Positions 11,322-59,601 of a stretch of DNA of 64,000 nt are shown one piece after another. Source of the DNA: an uncultured Bacteroidales bacterium (GTDB taxonomy: Bacteria; Bacteroidota; Bacteroidia; Bacteroidales; Muribaculaceae). Below the pieces are notes generated by a model. The model worked only from the letters and a program-made list of their open reading frames with translations. It did no database searches and was not told the origin of the DNA. The position numbers were made by a program, and so were the translations under genes. Each line of letters begins with the position of its first letter. Position 1 is the stretch's first letter. Location of the stretch: assembly GCA_902762385.1 (NCBI GenBank), contig CACWNQ010000004.1, positions 1 through 64,000 on the forward strand, given 5' to 3'.

Positions 11322-11380
11322 GGAAAAAAATGGAGAAAAAACAATTAGGACAGAAATCAAGTTGACTTCTGCCCTAATGC

Positions 11381-11453
11381 GCTTCAAGATGGACTTGAAC
11401 CAACGACCCCCTGATTAACAGTCAGGTGCTCTAACCAACTGAGCTATTGAAGC
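11381..11453 (-). tRNA. tRNA-Asn(GTT), copy 2
   Basis: 73 nt on the minus strand fold as a cloverleaf: 7-bp acceptor GCTTCAA/TTGAAGC, D stem GCTC/GAGC, and anticodon stem CCTGA/TCAGG around the loop CTGTTAA with anticodon GTT. The T loop is TTCAAGT. The T stem has one U-U mismatch (GTTGG/CCATC). CCA is not encoded. The sequence is identical to the copy at 11494-11566. Confidence 0.95.
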
Positions 11454-11493
11454 TTCGTTTAACCCTAAAATTATCCAATTATGAAAAAATGGC

Positions 11494-11566
11494 GCTTCAA
11501 GATGGACTTGAACCAACGACCCCCTGATTAACAGTCAGGTGCTCTAACCAACTGAGCTATTGAAGC
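11494..11566 (-). tRNA. tRNA-Asn(GTT), copy 1
   Basis: Base-for-base identical to the gene at 11381-11453 and separated from it by 40 bp. It is first in the transcription direction, directly after a -7 box at 11598-11605, so both are probably processed from one transcript. Confidence 0.95.
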
Positions 11567-53855: not shown

Positions 53856-55031
53856 ATGATCAAAATCGACTTTTTTAAAAAGATGCTTGGTTTCCAAGCA
53901 AACGAGAGTTCAACTAGCAGTATTAACCCTAAAAATGAAGAGAAAATGAACGAACAAGAAAACAAAAGCAAGAAAGCTCGCATCTACAACCTCATCATCG
54001 TCGACGAGAGTGGATCGATGCACGGACTGGAGCATGCCACACTCACTGGCGTGAACGAGATTATCAATAGCTTGCGTGGTGCGCAGCGTGAGTTTGCCGA
54101 AACACAGGAGCACTTCCTCACGCTCGTGACCTTCGATGCCAATGGTGGCAATCACCCAGTGCGTACCTTGATCGACCGTGAGCCCATAGGCAACGTCAAT
54201 GACTTTGACAACTATAACCCCTATGGTGGCACGCCTCTCTATGATGCAATGGGGCAGTCAATCACAGCTCTGCATAACCACATAAAGGACGATGACGACG
54301 CTAGCGCAGTGGTGACTGTGCTCACCGACGGCTACGAGAACGCCTCGCGCGAGTGGACTGGTGCTGCCCTAAAGGCTCTCATCGAGCAACTCACGCAAGA
54401 GGGGTGGTCATTCTCTTACATGGGTAGCAATCACGACGTGAAGCAGGTTAGCTTCAACCTGTCGATCAACAATGTGGTAGAGTTCAGCCACGATGTGATG
54501 GGAACAAGCAGCTCCTGGGCTCGTGAGAGTTCGGCAAAGCGCAACTACTTCAGAAAGATGGATGAGGAATATCGTCGCGGACGCAGACAAAGCAAGAAGG
54601 AATGGGTTGAGCGCAAGCGCGAGATGGCTAATGAGTACTACGGTAACCGTGTTACTCCTAATCACATTGCTAATCTGCAAGAAGGCGAAATATTCGTCTT
54701 CGGCAGCAACCCTCAGGGACTTCATAGCGGTGGTGCTGCTAGGGTGGCAATGGAGCGATTCGGTGCTGTGTGGGGCCAGGGCGAGGGACTGCAGGGACAG
54801 AGCTATGCCCTCCCTACTACGTGTCCTATCGAGCAGATAGCCGAGGCTGTGCAGCGTTTCACTCAGTTTGCCGGCCAGCATCCCGAACTTCGTTTCCTCG
54901 TAACACGCGTGGGCTGTGGCATCGCAGGGCGCACAGTCAATGAGATTGCACCTCTCTTTAAGGACTGCATCTATCTTGAGAATGTTGCCTTGCCCGCCGA
55001 GTTCTGGAAAATCCTCGGTCTCACAATGTAA
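53856..55031 (+). CDS. VWA domain fused to A1S_2505/macro-like domain
   Basis: 391 aa. Residues about 42-235 are a von Willebrand A domain with a complete MIDAS: DESGSM (Asp50/Ser52/Ser54), Thr in PYGGTPLYD, and TDGYEN. A charged linker (RRGRRQSKKEWVERKREM) joins it to residues 275-391 (GEIFVFGSNPQGLHSGGAARVA, GQGEGLQGQSYALPT, FLVTRVGCGIAGRTVNEIAPLF), which I recognise as the A1S_2505 phage-associated, macro-like fold. The catalytic role is unproved. Translation may start at 53856 or at Met31 (53946). It is 53 bp before the DUF6717-like gene. Confidence 0.8.
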   Translation: MIKIDFFKKMLGFQANESSTSSINPKNEEKMNEQENKSKKARIYNLIIVDESGSMHGLEHATLTGVNEIINSLRGAQREFAETQEHFLTLVTFDANGGNHPVRTLIDREPIGNVNDFDNYNPYGGTPLYDAMGQSITALHNHIKDDDDASAVVTVLTDGYENASREWTGAALKALIEQLTQEGWSFSYMGSNHDVKQVSFNLSINNVVEFSHDVMGTSSSWARESSAKRNYFRKMDEEYRRGRRQSKKEWVERKREMANEYYGNRVTPNHIANLQEGEIFVFGSNPQGLHSGGAARVAMERFGAVWGQGEGLQGQSYALPTTCPIEQIAEAVQRFTQFAGQHPELRFLVTRVGCGIAGRTVNEIAPLFKDCIYLENVALPAEFWKILGLTM

Positions 55032-55828: not shown

Positions 55829-56851
55829 TTAACTATTGTCGTAGGCGTCAGCCGCTTGGCGCAGGCAGTCGCGCATATATGCCACCACATTGCGTGGCGA
55901 CAGTACGCGCAATCCCGGTCCGTAGCTCATCAGTACTGAATATAGCTCAAAGTTGAGCACCACCTCAATCTGGAAGATGCAGCTGCCGTCTTCGTTGTTG
56001 CGCTCGAGCAACTGCTGCGACGGGTGCAGGGGCTTAGTCAGCACATATTTGCTCTGTTCGCGATTCGTCCAGAACTTTACTTGCCGTGGTTTGTTATTGA
56101 TGTTCTTACTCACCCCTATCACGTCGTCAAAGAAATGCTCGGGGTCAAAATGAGGATTGTCTTGATAAGTCACGTCAGGGGTAGGCTCAACGCTGATTAT
56201 TCGGTCGAGGGCAAGGTTATAAAGCACCATGTCCTTGGCGCGACTGCCAAAGAGGAACCAGCGGTTGCGGAATTCCTTTAACAGATATGGAAATAAGATA
56301 AACACTTGCGAACGCCGTGCACTGAACGACTGGTACTCAATGCGCAGAGTCTGACGGTGGGCGATATGGTTATATAGTGGGTTGAGCAACTTCAGACCCT
56401 TGAGGTCGGGCACATTGTCGAAATTGACGATTGGTTTGCGGCCATTGCGCGTGATAGCGAGTTTGTCCTGAAGGCGGCTCACCACATCGGCCATCTCGCT
56501 GAACTGGTCAAACTCCTCAAGCTGTCGCAGCATGTCGACTGCCTCTTGCAACGCCTCGTAATCGGTTGCCGAGAGTGGCATATTGAATATGGAGTAGTCT
56601 TGGTCGGCATATCGGTAATACTTGTGGTCATAAACCTCAATGGGAGCATTATAACCCAGTTTGTCACTGCGCATCATCTGGATGTCGGATTGCACAGTAC
56701 GCACCGACACACCTTTAGTTATCCCCTCCATCTCATAGAGGGCATCGCTGCAGGCGTCCACCAGGTCATCGAGCGTCCACCTGCGGTAATGATTTCGCAA
56801 GCAGTTGTCGATAGTCTTATAGCGAATCAACGCATTCTTATTTGCTGGCAT
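55829..56851 (-). CDS. WYL-domain transcriptional regulator
   Basis: 340 aa. Residues 1-80 are an HTH region (TLDDLVDACSDALYEMEG, SVRTVQSDIQMMRS). The WYL domain is about 150-240, with the motif as RWFLFGS and the ligand-facing LRIEYQSFSARRSQ. A WCX-type C-terminus follows. WYL regulators sense nucleic acids or nucleotides and often control defence and stress genes. I start at MPANKNALIRY; 67 codons upstream in frame run through the promoter. It is divergent from the structured RNA and has a matching operator at 56896. Confidence 0.88.
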   Translation of the reverse strand: MPANKNALIRYKTIDNCLRNHYRRWTLDDLVDACSDALYEMEGITKGVSVRTVQSDIQMMRSDKLGYNAPIEVYDHKYYRYADQDYSIFNMPLSATDYEALQEAVDMLRQLEEFDQFSEMADVVSRLQDKLAITRNGRKPIVNFDNVPDLKGLKLLNPLYNHIAHRQTLRIEYQSFSARRSQVFILFPYLLKEFRNRWFLFGSRAKDMVLYNLALDRIISVEPTPDVTYQDNPHFDPEHFFDDVIGVSKNINNKPRQVKFWTNREQSKYVLTKPLHPSQQLLERNNEDGSCIFQIEVVLNFELYSVLMSYGPGLRVLSPRNVVAYMRDCLRQAADAYDNS

Positions 56852-56878
56852 GATTACAAATGTGTTAAGTTGTTGGCA

Positions 56879-56886
56879 CAAAGTTA
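56879..56886 (-). promoter_or_regulatory. -7 box of the WYL regulator
   Basis: The minus strand reads TAACTTTG, 28 bp before the start. Confidence 0.65.
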
Positions 56887-56895
56887 CAAAAAAAC

Positions 56896-56914
56896 TACGC
56901 AACCTATTTGCGCA
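56896..56914. promoter_or_regulatory. operator 1, TACGCAA-N5-TTGCGCA
   Basis: A 19-bp near-palindrome centred about 32 bp upstream of the expected start point of the WYL gene. The arms are identical to those of operator 2. Confidence 0.7.
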
Positions 56915-56965
56915 GAAGGCAAAAAACACAAAAAAATCGCACTTTTTTTTCATTTTTTTCTTCAC

Positions 56966-56984
56966 TACGCAAAAAGATTGCGCA
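56966..56984. promoter_or_regulatory. operator 2, TACGCAA-N5-TTGCGCA
   Basis: The same 19-bp site, centred about 32 bp upstream of the expected RNA start and covering its -33 region. The two operators are 70 bp apart and placed symmetrically relative to their promoters. Confidence 0.7.
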
Positions 56985-56994
56985 CTGCCACCAT

Positions 56995-57002
56995 TACCTT
57001 TG
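56995..57002 (+). promoter_or_regulatory. -7 box of the structured RNA
   Basis: The plus strand reads TACCTTTG; the first paired base of the RNA is 5 bp downstream. Confidence 0.7.
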
Positions 57003-57006
57003 CAGC

Positions 57007-57103
57007 GACAAGTCATTAGGAGGAGAAAGTCGGTTTCTCCCGGGTACTGCACTAGCAGTAGGGCTGATGATGGAACCGCCGCACATCAATGATTTGTCTT
57101 TTT
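57007..57103 (+). ncRNA. compact structured RNA with closing stem and U-tail
   Basis: An 11-bp basal stem (GACAAGTCATT 57007-57017 with AATGATTTGTC 57088-57098, one G-U pair) is followed by TTTTT (57099-57103). Inside are two perfect hairpins: GGAGAAA/TTTCTCC around GTCGG (57022-57040) and TACTGC/GCAGTA around ACTA (57045-57060). A third weaker arm is GATG/CATC (57066-57087). The 5' end coincides with the expected start point of the -7 box. It may be a discrete small RNA or a terminating leader of the gene at 57134. I recognise no known RNA family. Confidence 0.65.
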
Positions 57104-57133
57104 AGAGTTTTTAATTATTTAAATGTAGGTATT

Positions 57134-58087
57134 ATGAAGAATTTCCATGACTACAAAAAGTTTTTTGATGTAAAGGGTGTAACAAGCACTTCGGCTAACT
57201 ACCTTAGCAACATTGCAAAGGAGATCATCAAGAGTTATGTAATCTTTGAGAAAATCTCTTTTGAAACAACTACAGTGCGCGACTTCCATGCCGAGGATGG
57301 CAAGGTGTTTCTTGTGGGCCAGGGTATCTCGGAGCAGGAATTCAACGACCTTAACCAGCTGCTTGAAAACAAGGCAAAGCTTAACTCGTTGATTGCTTGG
57401 TTCCGTGAGGCCATCAAGGCAAGGGAGTTCCAAATGGAAGAGATTGAGTCGATGAGCTTCGAGTCGTGGATGAAGGACATGAAGAACATCGATGACCTGA
57501 ACTTTGGTTACGAAATTCCTGAATACAAGGCCGAAGATTATGAGCACATAACTCAAGAGGAGTATATCGAGAACAACTTCTCGGTTAAGGAGATGAATCG
57601 TTATTTCTATCTCCAGAGCATGGCGTCTTCTCTTGGAAAGTTTATCCATCCCAATGGCGCTTATGCTGCCGCCAAGGAGATAATCGAAAAGAGTAAAGGC
57701 ACTTCCTATGTCAAGGAAACTCCATCGGCCAATATGCTTTATAGCATCTCATCTTCTGTTTCTATTGAGGAGATTCAGGCTAAGTTCTTTGAATTGCAAG
57801 ACAAGCAGCGTGAGTATCAAAAGCAGTTGAACGAGATTTTATTCTCGGTAGAAAAGGCTGTGAACAAATACAATGACGATCAAGATGCAAAGCTTCATCA
57901 GTTCAACTTGGACAAGCAAGACATCCAGGGCAAGATTCGTGTCGAAGAACTTAAGTATAAGAAGGAGTTCTCACAATGGAAGGTTGATGAGCTCAACCGA
58001 CTTCGTTCTTTGAAGATTATCATCCCTAACGATCTTATGGACATTTATCAGTTCGTAACTTCTTACGGGAAGCAGTCCGGTGAATAA
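57134..58087 (+). CDS. unrecognised soluble protein with C-terminal coiled coil
   Basis: 317 aa starting MKNFHDYKKFFDVKGV. Residues 1-190 look globular and alpha-rich, with an acidic stretch at 120-145 (EIPEYKAEDYEHITQEEY). Residues 210-290 are a coiled coil (EEIQAKFFELQDKQREYQKQLNE, DKQDIQGKIRVEELKYKKE). No signal peptide or membrane segment. I do not know the family. The start is 30 bp after the U-run of the structured RNA, so expression may depend on read-through. A frame from 57089 begins inside the RNA stem and I reject it. Confidence 0.75.
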   Translation: MKNFHDYKKFFDVKGVTSTSANYLSNIAKEIIKSYVIFEKISFETTTVRDFHAEDGKVFLVGQGISEQEFNDLNQLLENKAKLNSLIAWFREAIKAREFQMEEIESMSFESWMKDMKNIDDLNFGYEIPEYKAEDYEHITQEEYIENNFSVKEMNRYFYLQSMASSLGKFIHPNGAYAAAKEIIEKSKGTSYVKETPSANMLYSISSSVSIEEIQAKFFELQDKQREYQKQLNEILFSVEKAVNKYNDDQDAKLHQFNLDKQDIQGKIRVEELKYKKEFSQWKVDELNRLRSLKIIIPNDLMDIYQFVTSYGKQSGE

Positions 58088-58428: not shown

Positions 58429-59601
58429 ATGGAAGTAAAAATAATAAACAATCGTCCTGTTAAGATATGGACTGGCGAAGTGGAGGAAAGCGCAATGGAG
58501 CAGATTGCGAACCTCACTAAGTTGCCTTTCATGTTTCATCATCTTGCCATCATGCCCGACGTGCATGCCGGTATGGGAATGCCCATTGGTGGCGTGCTGG
58601 CAACGGTTGATGCGGTGATTCCTAACGCTGTTGGGGTCGACATAGGCTGCGGCATGTGTGCCGTGAAAACCTCGTGGAAGGTGGAAAACATTACATCCGA
58701 TGTGCTTCGCAAGAAGATAATGCGTGGCATTCGCAAGGCGATTCCTCTTGGCAAAGAGCATCACAAGAAAGCTCAGGACGAGAAATTCATGCCTCAGGGC
58801 CACGATATCGATTCGATGCAGGTGGTTCGTAGTCAGTACATTTCGGCAACCAAGCAGGTTGGTACCCTGGGTGGTGGCAACCACTTCATTGAGCTTCAGC
58901 GCGATGAGGAGGGTTACCTATGGGTGATGATTCACTCTGGTAGCCGAAACCTGGGCAAAAAGGTGGGCGACTACTACAATCGCCTTGCTACCACGCTTAA
59001 CGAGCGATGGCACTCGGTGGTGAATCCCGAGCTGCATCTTGCTTTCTTGCCTTTAAAGACCAATGAGTTTAACAACTACTGGGCCGAGATGCAGTACTGC
59101 GTCGACTTCGCGCTGTGCAACCGTCGCCTCATGATGGAGCGAATCAAGGAGATACTAGCCGATGCATTGTCTGGCATCGAGTTTGAGCCAATGATCAACA
59201 TTGCTCACAACTATGCAACTTGGGAGCACCACTTTAGCAAGAATGTGATAGTTCACCGCAAGGGCGCCACATTGGCGCGCGAGGGTGTGGTGGGTATCAT
59301 TCCTGGTTCGCAGGGTACTGCTTCTTATATAGTTGAGGGTCTTGGTAACCCCGACTCGTTCTGCAGCTGTTCGCACGGCGCTGGTCGTGTTATGAGCCGA
59401 ACAAAGGCCGTTCAGTCGCTCTCGTTGGAGGACGAAATCAAGCGCCTCGATGACCAGGGAATTGTCCATGCCATTCGCACCGTTCACGACCTTGAGGAAG
59501 CTGCTGGTGCCTACAAGGACATCGAGACCGTAATCAACAACGAATTCGACCTTGTGCGCATTGTCACCCGACTACTTCCCATCGCAGTCATCAAAGGCTG
59601 A
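58429..59601 (+). CDS. rtcB: RtcB-family RNA ligase
   Basis: RtcB joins RNA 2',3'-cyclic or 3'-phosphate ends to 5'-OH ends using GTP and Mn2+. The 390-aa protein has PDVHAGMGMPIGG, the metal-binding VGVDIGCGMCAV (about 69-80), LGGGNHFIE, IHSGSRNLG, INIAHNYAT, and the guanylylated His in CSCSHGAGRVMSR (about 315). All key residues appear intact. The length is on the short side of RtcB, like the RtcB2-type forms. No archease gene is in this window. Confidence 0.93.
   Translation: MEVKIINNRPVKIWTGEVEESAMEQIANLTKLPFMFHHLAIMPDVHAGMGMPIGGVLATVDAVIPNAVGVDIGCGMCAVKTSWKVENITSDVLRKKIMRGIRKAIPLGKEHHKKAQDEKFMPQGHDIDSMQVVRSQYISATKQVGTLGGGNHFIELQRDEEGYLWVMIHSGSRNLGKKVGDYYNRLATTLNERWHSVVNPELHLAFLPLKTNEFNNYWAEMQYCVDFALCNRRLMMERIKEILADALSGIEFEPMINIAHNYATWEHHFSKNVIVHRKGATLAREGVVGIIPGSQGTASYIVEGLGNPDSFCSCSHGAGRVMSRTKAVQSLSLEDEIKRLDDQGIVHAIRTVHDLEEAAGAYKDIETVINNEFDLVRIVTRLLPIAVIKG

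Follow-up and report, generated by a model that had tools for sequence, protein, structure and literature searches.

A covarying four-way-junction RNA of Bacteroidales, found beside RtcB and in phage-type polyvalent genes, as a possible antidote to BECR RNases

The window considered here is a stretch of 64,000 nucleotides (nt), positions 1 to 64,000 of contig CACWNQ010000004.1 from an uncultured Bacteroidales bacterium of the Muribaculaceae (assembly GCA_902762385.1). At 57007-57103 of this window lies a predicted structured RNA, which is situated behind two putative operators of a divergent WYL-domain regulator and upstream of a gene starting at 57134 (gene 57134) and of a gene for the RNA ligase RtcB (Table 1). 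A preliminary description of the element, made from the DNA letters alone, had reported an 11-bp closing stem, three arms, a promoter box ahead and a TTTTT end; all of these are borne out by the sequence and the predicted fold. Loci and genomes other than the window are referred to by L and G numbers, respectively.

Table 1. Positions of the RNA, its helices and the neighbouring features in the window
Feature	Position	Strand	Basis and remarks
Structured RNA, four-way junction closed by P1, U5 tail	57007..57103	+	Predicted fold; 15-member alignment with covariation
P1, 5' strand	57007..57017	+	GACAAGTCATT; partner 57088-57098; two-sided changes in the family at 9/11 P1 pairs
P2 hairpin (first arm)	57022..57040	+	Two-sided changes at 2/5 modelled pairs; weakest helix
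P3 arm, CGG/CUG base plus variable 6-bp stem	57041..57066	+	Two-sided changes at 6/9 pairs
P4 hairpin, continuous with P1, loop AACCGCCGC	57069..57087	+	Two-sided changes at 3/4 pairs
P1, 3' strand, and U-tail	57088..57103	+	AATGATTTGTC at 57088-57098, then TTTTT at 57099-57103
TAnnTTTG box, TACCTTTG	56995..57002	+	Four bases before the RNA start at 57007
Proximal palindrome, putative WYL operator	56965..56985	.	CTACGCAA-N5-TTGCGCAC, just upstream of the -7 box; sequence
Distal palindrome, putative WYL operator	56895..56915	.	CTACGCAA-N5-TTGCGCAG; sequence
WYL-domain transcription regulator (WYL + WCX), divergent to the RNA	55829..56851	-	Pfam WYL 1.2e-8, WCX 1.7e-10
Gene 57134, 317 amino acids	57134..58087	+	Family-less: no Pfam match over cut-off, no NCBIfam match, no PADLOC match
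RtcB RNA ligase	58429..59601	+	Pfam RtcB E 2.2e-112

The two strands of P1 are complementary and stand 70 nt apart, with the T run directly 3' of the second, and the ends of the RNA were placed from sequence alone. The predicted fold of the element (-32.3 kcal/mol) consists of the 11-bp P1 and three arms, namely P2 with 7 bp (57022-57028/57034-57040), P3 with 3+6 bp (57041-57050/57055-57066) and P4 with 4 bp (57069-57072/57084-57087). As 2 of 200 dinucleotide shuffles are equally stable (z = -2.52), folding energy alone is modest evidence for an RNA, whereas the comparative evidence is strong.

Covariance models and pattern scans recovered 15 RNA loci, 13 in genomes within the order and 2 in IMG/VR viral contigs. 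The first model, built from four window-type sequences and run on 101 genomes of the genus and 397 of the family, matched L092, L093, L100, L101, L102 and L103 at E 1.4e-12 to 8.3e-7. A second model, run on 393 genomes of the order, added L105, L106 and L107 (E 2.2e-6 to 1.6e-4), and a third found only the window's own genome among 295 genomes of the class. L104 came from a pattern scan of viral contigs and L227 from later scans; a loose viral scan gave at least 120 stretches, of which 80 were run through the model and 120 through the pattern, leading to L227. Every carrier genome, the window's included, holds a single match. The genome searches used strict filters, and the family is surely undersampled by searches that covered genomes and viral contigs. 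Weak matches of the first model were dropped (L094-L099 at E 0.038-0.95 in the genus, G058 at 0.038 in the family), as were L108-L110 from the second (E 0.0146-0.025), which lie inside unrelated open reading frames (ORFs) and lack the core; these three score 20-26 bits under model R3 (E 0.0002-0.008 in a small search) and are still excluded. The viral-scan candidates L231 and L241-L243 were judged to be chance matches, the last three having come up alongside L104 and L227. Among the other viral scans, two were empty, one gave no relative and one returned just the contig of L104; single blastn queries, the L104 RNA against phages and the L101 RNA against plasmids, gave no match.

Across the 15-member alignment, two-sided changes occur at 20 of 29 pairs, and the covariation score is 0.611 versus 0.222 +- 0.022 for shuffled alignments, with none of 500 shuffles reaching this value and slid controls at or below 0.144. 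Paired cells make up 92.5% of 427, against 70.9% after shuffling, in an alignment that was fitted to the structure, which biases pairing counts; in the raw sequences, P1, P3 and P4 are rewritten among members yet still paired. One member, L107, was aligned with its 3' end shortened by the model, and its P1 and P4 cells differ from the pairing seen by eye. The two-sided changes and the covariation score argue for a real RNA family, and comparison of the sequences has shown 57007-57103 to be a member of an undescribed small-RNA family of Bacteroidales, whose conserved four-way junction is closed by pairing of the two RNA ends. In Rfam 15 no family reaches threshold on the window RNA and none overlaps it even at E up to 10; on six relatives nothing overlaps the RNA, the tRNA model has no match at the window RNA, and the portions of the literature that were searched hold no account of the family. 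The preliminary description had called the element an undescribed structured RNA without an Rfam-type consensus, a view that was to stand or fall with compensatory change in homologs; such change is strong, and both parts of the view hold.

Other readings of the same letters were tried and rejected. An open frame spans the RNA, but, as read by eye, the changes among members hit all codon positions, and the sole Pfam match of this frame is below cut-off (17.4 vs 27.3 bits), so a coding peptide was set aside. The RNA contains a CUGAUG stretch resembling a hammerhead core; a self-cleaving ribozyme or an RtcB-circularised RNA was nevertheless rejected, as no ribozyme family matched and the GAAA partner is misplaced for a hammerhead. 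A kissing interaction between the P2 and P4 loops, comparable to the contact of first-arm and last-arm loops in a tRNA or tRNA mimic, is considered here because of the loop sequences; these are complementary in 13/13 sequences (13 of the 15 members, with loops cut by hand), but the contact is suggestive only, 267 of 5000 shuffles matching as well.

Of 12 independent loci (the window group being counted once), 7 have an exact TAnnTTTG box, a -7 box of the Bacteroidales type, 3-12 nt ahead of the RNA; with a chance of 0.0075 per 26-nt window, P is about 1e-12. There is no exact box in the 40 nt upstream of L100, L103, L105, L106 and L107, nor in those upstream of L088 and L091 of the window group. 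At L016 (= L091), the RNA is situated ~65 nt further downstream of the promoter. Because of this offset and the missing boxes at L088 and L091, the exact 5' boundary lacks conservation, by sequence comparison, even within the four window-type copies. The occurrence of promoter-like boxes before the RNA in unrelated loci is in keeping with the earlier suggestion of an autonomous small RNA, which this element probably is. The RNA is also probably transcribed in the predicted direction: the alignment contains 28 G-U against 7 A-C cells, as expected if this is the strand that folds, in a fit to the fold that itself favours G-U. A 3' run of four or more T is present in 8 of the 15 members, and hairpin-plus-T terminators were seen by eye after L101, L105, L106, L107 and L227.

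The four loci closest to that of the window retain the RNA in three cases (L013, L014 and L016) and lack it in one, L015, where the 57134 protein is 96% identical and the promoter is retained ahead of an unrelated leader. L007 and L008, with 57134 proteins of 34-35% identity, have different short leaders, that of L007 having ends able to pair. The final RNA model found no copy at ten distinct other 57134-homolog loci (L007-L012, L015, L032, L037 and L040), and, conversely, tblastn of the sequence fetched around the other 11 RNA loci detected no 57134 homolog. Gene 57134 is not the usual neighbour and partner of the RNA. An AlphaFold model of the 57134 protein from 5 near-identical sequences was unusable (pLDDT 38).

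The divergent WYL regulator is a candidate controller of the RNA promoter, whose two palindromes share the form CTACGCAA-N5-TTGCGCA and would be bound by this protein. Relatives of the WYL protein (E <= 1e-30) are present in 122 of 297 family genomes searched. Among 30 WYL-gene loci, the window's included, RtcB occurs in 13 and a 57134 homolog in 6, on the divergent side within ~1.5 kb, and the strict palindrome pattern stands upstream of the WYL gene in 16. Longer stretches around WYL genes contain TROVE genes at L048, L050 and L067, with RtcB as well at the latter two; at L067 both are >3 kb away, beyond opposite-strand genes. In some sister genomes, the same WYL-linked promoter type precedes TROVE/Rsr genes, RtcB and, by eye, Y-RNA-like repeats. 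Since WYL-linked loci carry RtcB, TROVE and these palindromes, the window locus is, by its gene content, one version of a WYL-linked RNA-repair locus. A mutual exclusion of TROVE and 57134 genes was considered and rejected as not significant (11 and 11 of 101 genomes, zero overlap, P = 0.26). As a separate observation, more than 20 genomes among the matches listed (e.g., G317:C22:59246-59647) have a standalone N-terminal half of the WYL regulator, covering ~residues 1-134 at 61-68% identity, mostly in ORFs of ~140-150 amino acids.

Copies of the RNA are shown by sequence to occur both in chromosomes of related bacteria and within or adjacent to phage-type polyvalent genes. At L107 the RNA lies 64 nt after an RtcB gene in an AAA ATPase-RtcB-RNA unit, whose RtcB is only 32% identical to that of the window; copies thus adjoin RtcB genes in two GTDB families. 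Three copies are intergenic (L100, L102 and L106), five are antisense inside long ORFs (L092, L101, L103, L104 and L227), one is at the junction of two ORFs (L105) and one at the end of a Kinase-PolyVal ORF (L093). Read along the ORF strand, the domain that immediately precedes the RNA is PBECR3 at L092, L101, L227 and L104, PBECR2 at L105 and LPD3 at L103; i.e., a BECR-fold RNase domain stands beside the RNA in 5 of 7 polyvalent-gene cases, all five with scores below the curated Pfam cut-offs. Within the overlapping ORF the RNA stretch reads as a Ser/Thr-rich linker. Between L092 and L104 one P4 pair changes from A-U to U-A, and in the antisense ORF this alters Glu to Val and Ser to Thr. Because the flip preserves the pair but changes both amino acids, what selection maintains here appears to be the RNA, not the overlapping linker protein.

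The association was also approached from the side of the nuclease. A Pfam search for PBECR3 covered 101 genomes of the genus (4 with a match), 13 RNA carriers plus G006 (2 with a match) and 193 genomes of the order (8 with a match), and the resulting set comprised 14 loci, L244-L257; L251 (one internal stop) and L256 are counted here and excluded from alignment A6, and L249 and L257 extend just 141 and 180 nt beyond the PBECR3 domain. In the 350 nt that follow the domain, 12 of these 14 loci have a TAnnTTTG box on the opposite strand, against 8 of 42 control windows (sense downstream 2/14, antisense upstream 4/14, sense upstream 2/14), giving a Fisher P of 1.4e-5, or 2.9e-4 when L246 and L248 are left out, for an idea that arose from the first five of the 14 loci. 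Among the nine loci fetched after the idea had been formed, the box is present at 7, against 7 of 27 controls (P = 0.009). A detector that requires a box, a closed stem and a T-run, with criteria written after viewing the same loci, responds at 6/14 targets, 0/42 controls, 38/4000 background windows and 8/1400 shuffles. Finally, a motif CGTT-N3/4-GACGT, picked from five of the seven loci that have it, occurs on the box strand at 7 of the 14 loci and at none on the opposite strand. As box, detector and motif are enriched on the facing strand, genes for PBECR3-type nucleases tend to have what appears to be a convergent small RNA behind them, of several sequence classes. tblastn of PBECR3 proteins found no match in phages; in plasmids one search was empty and another gave a single distant match, from Azospirillum.

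Two further kinds of candidate RNA were noted at these loci. The CGTT-N3/4-GACGT motif marks a putative second RNA class, antisense downstream of PBECR3 at L244, L245, L249, L250, L251, L252 and L257, with a TAnnTTTG box ahead at six of the seven. L253 and L254 have, also antisense downstream of PBECR3, other closed-stem RNAs of unrelated sequence with terminal stems of 15 bp and 12 bp and T7 tails.

Our results may be explained if the RNA is a trans-acting antidote to BECR RNases, of which an orphan copy has come to lie in the RNA-repair locus of the window. We hold this explanation tentatively, as a possibility still short of probable, and favour it because it is the simplest account that covers both the BECR and the RtcB settings. 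A compact closed-stem RNA would bind and block a BECR RNase, or would decoy the RNase as a substrate mimic; an element carrying the nuclease, or a host that had captured the RNA, would thereby be protected. A comparable idea exists for Salmonella, where, as suggested in a study of RNA repair (PMC7790460), the tRNA-like domain of YrlA may competitively inhibit an anticodon nuclease. The window copy would be an orphan without a nuclease gene, held behind putative WYL operators along with RtcB, such that RNA damage would induce inhibitor and repair enzyme together. RtcB repairs RNA ends left by endoRNase cuts. A more far-reaching version seems doubtful to us, if conceivable: BECR RNases of Bacteroidales phages and mobile elements would be systematically paired with convergent closed-stem antidote RNAs of several classes, while hosts would keep orphans, here under damage-responsive WYL control beside RtcB, as one induced unit that blocks injected RNases and repairs the RNA cut by them.

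Several observations weigh against an antidote function. The PBECR domains are predicted RNases, and those beside the RNA score below threshold (21-29 bits vs 30; PBECR2 21-24 vs 27.1). L093 and L103 adjoin the non-BECR polyvalent domains Kinase-PolyVal and LPD3. Among 14 genomes (13 RNA carriers and G006) only G034 and G329 have PBECR3, among 6 genomes searched only G724 has PBECR2, and the window's genome has a match to neither. Of the 14 PBECR3 loci, just two, L246 and L248, gave a match to the window-type RNA, the next best score being 15.5 bits. The origins of the box idea and of the detector criteria count on the same side, as do the 7 of 15 members whose 3' end lacks four consecutive T, and the RNA is dispensable at L015, where it has been replaced.

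Folded RNAs paired with an endoRNase are known from type III toxin-antitoxin systems (ToxI/ToxN), in which the RNAs are upstream tandem repeats forming repeated pseudoknots. The window RNA family is similar in having its own promoter-like box, and may also be similar in its pairing with a predicted RNase gene, which adjoins the RNA in five relatives (PBECR3 or PBECR2, all sub-threshold matches). It differs in that the RNA is convergent and a closed multibranch, the partner would be of BECR fold, and no toxin partner stands beside the window copy. Tandem pseudoknot repeats ahead of the gene and in its orientation were not found, the RNA being a single unit on the opposite strand. The protein side of the association corresponds to the PBECR RNase domains of polyvalent proteins, which passages of PMC5512222 treat as BECR-fold endoRNases acting as conflict effectors; these passages describe no RNA partner, and the words noncoding and ncRNA are absent from the main text.

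Antisense control and a selfish cassette are serious rivals to the antidote explanation. If the RNA acted in cis, as in type I systems, it would silence nuclease or polyvalent mRNAs by base pairing with their 3' end or middle, and the chromosomal orphans, the window copy included, would be relics or captured regulators. The convergent geometry at PBECR3 loci and the nesting of the RNA antisense inside ORFs are as expected for such a role, and a convergent small RNA that overlaps or abuts the 3' end of a toxin gene recalls type I antitoxins such as SR6 and RatA. Type I systems typically involve small hydrophobic toxins. No antisense relation to such a toxin was found here, the adjacent domains being PBECR3/2, LPD3 and Kinase-PolyVal; the partner is instead a predicted RNase domain, large polyvalent ORFs can contain the RNA, and the locus of the window group has no recognised toxin. 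Moreover, the fold is kept by compensatory change in the intergenic copies L100, L102, L106 and L107 and in the window group, i.e., also in orphan copies. Convergent antisense RNAs are employed in the type I yonT/SR6 system of B. subtilis, as described in PMC5848175. On balance, we consider cis-antisense control to be unlikely.

A selfish or hitch-hiking cassette, composed of promoter, folded RNA and U-tail and inserting between genes or in frame in the linkers of large proteins, would require no action in trans and is comparable in outline to the Rickettsia palindromic elements. Scattered and unrelated positions, tolerance in frame in long ORFs as a Ser/Thr-rich linker and presence or absence between near-identical loci (L015) would all suit an element of this kind. 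Such a cassette is nevertheless improbable, as neither the window's genome nor any other carrier has more than one match, the junction is retained across large divergence, and positions cluster beside effector domains, those of BECR type among them.

Bacterial Y RNAs (YrlA, RF02553; rsr-yrl-rtc operons) resemble the window RNA as small RNAs closed by their own ends, with several arms and in an RtcB-containing unit. However, the YrlA model has no match in 56850-57250 at E up to 10, TROVE (Ro60/Rsr) has none in the window's genome (G000, 96.6% complete) while 11 of the 101 genus genomes have one, and other copies of the RNA ride in phage-type polyvalent genes; the resemblance is one of outline only, as the preliminary description had said. 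A functional analogue of Y RNA, i.e., an RNA partner of the 57134 protein or of another RNA-repair factor in place of the TROVE/Rsr and Y-RNA-like stretches of some sister species, is a remote prospect: the WYL-linked units of L048 (TROVE) and L050 (TROVE and RtcB), where Y-RNA-like stretches were seen by eye, and the AAA ATPase-RtcB-RNA unit of L107 would fit it, whereas the missing YrlA and TROVE matches and the 57134 homologs elsewhere that lack the RNA do not. Equally hard to sustain is a structured 5' leader or attenuator regulating 57134, of which a ligand-sensing form had been proposed at the outset: 30 bp separate the RNA from the 57134 ATG, and of the five most similar loci, the window's among them, four retain the RNA, but its absence at L015 and the other 57134-homolog loci, together with the lack of a 57134 homolog around the other 11 RNA loci, means that the genomic settings speak against this role.

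Some observations on neighbouring RNAs and genes are recorded for their own sake. At L050 and L051, the stretch from the WYL gene to its neighbour contains several tandem units with TGCCGTAG...TTACTTCG behind the same promoter type; these repeats, Y-RNA-like by eye and position, have no Rfam match. A YrlA-like RNA at L048:6648-6751 (- strand; 35 bits, below the gathering score of 69) has, by eye, a tRNA 3' half ahead of the 5' half and lies before the TROVE gene and behind a WYL-type operator. Downstream of a WYL-linked RtcB, at L058:2619-2742 (+ strand), there is a tRNA-like gene (59.7 bits) whose anticodon loop region is enlarged by a 54-nt insertion. ARAGORN missed this gene, which has the look of a decoy tRNA, or of a tRNA with an intron, next to an RNA ligase. 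L055:1-1784 (- strand), ~3.5 kb past a WYL-linked RtcB and on the same strand, contains a tRNA gene array in which ARAGORN finds 12 genes and Rfam 14; this RtcB has its own second palindrome. In the window itself, the gene at 53856-55031 (+ strand), near the RNA-repair locus, encodes a sub-threshold VWA-like N-terminus and a C-terminal A1S_2505-type domain of phage proteins, while 11380-11453 and 11493-11566 (- strand) are two adjacent tRNA genes with equal scores.

In summary, our analysis adds a structured RNA family, defined by covariation, that is missing from Rfam 15. If the antidote explanation is true, RNA-based toxin control would gain a novel variant rather than a system of an entirely new kind. 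The family provides a concrete lead to RNA partners of the RNases of polyvalent proteins, which are themselves predictions so far, and links such RNAs to RtcB loci, with a bearing on the signals, the substrates and the role of the accompanying RNAs at these loci.
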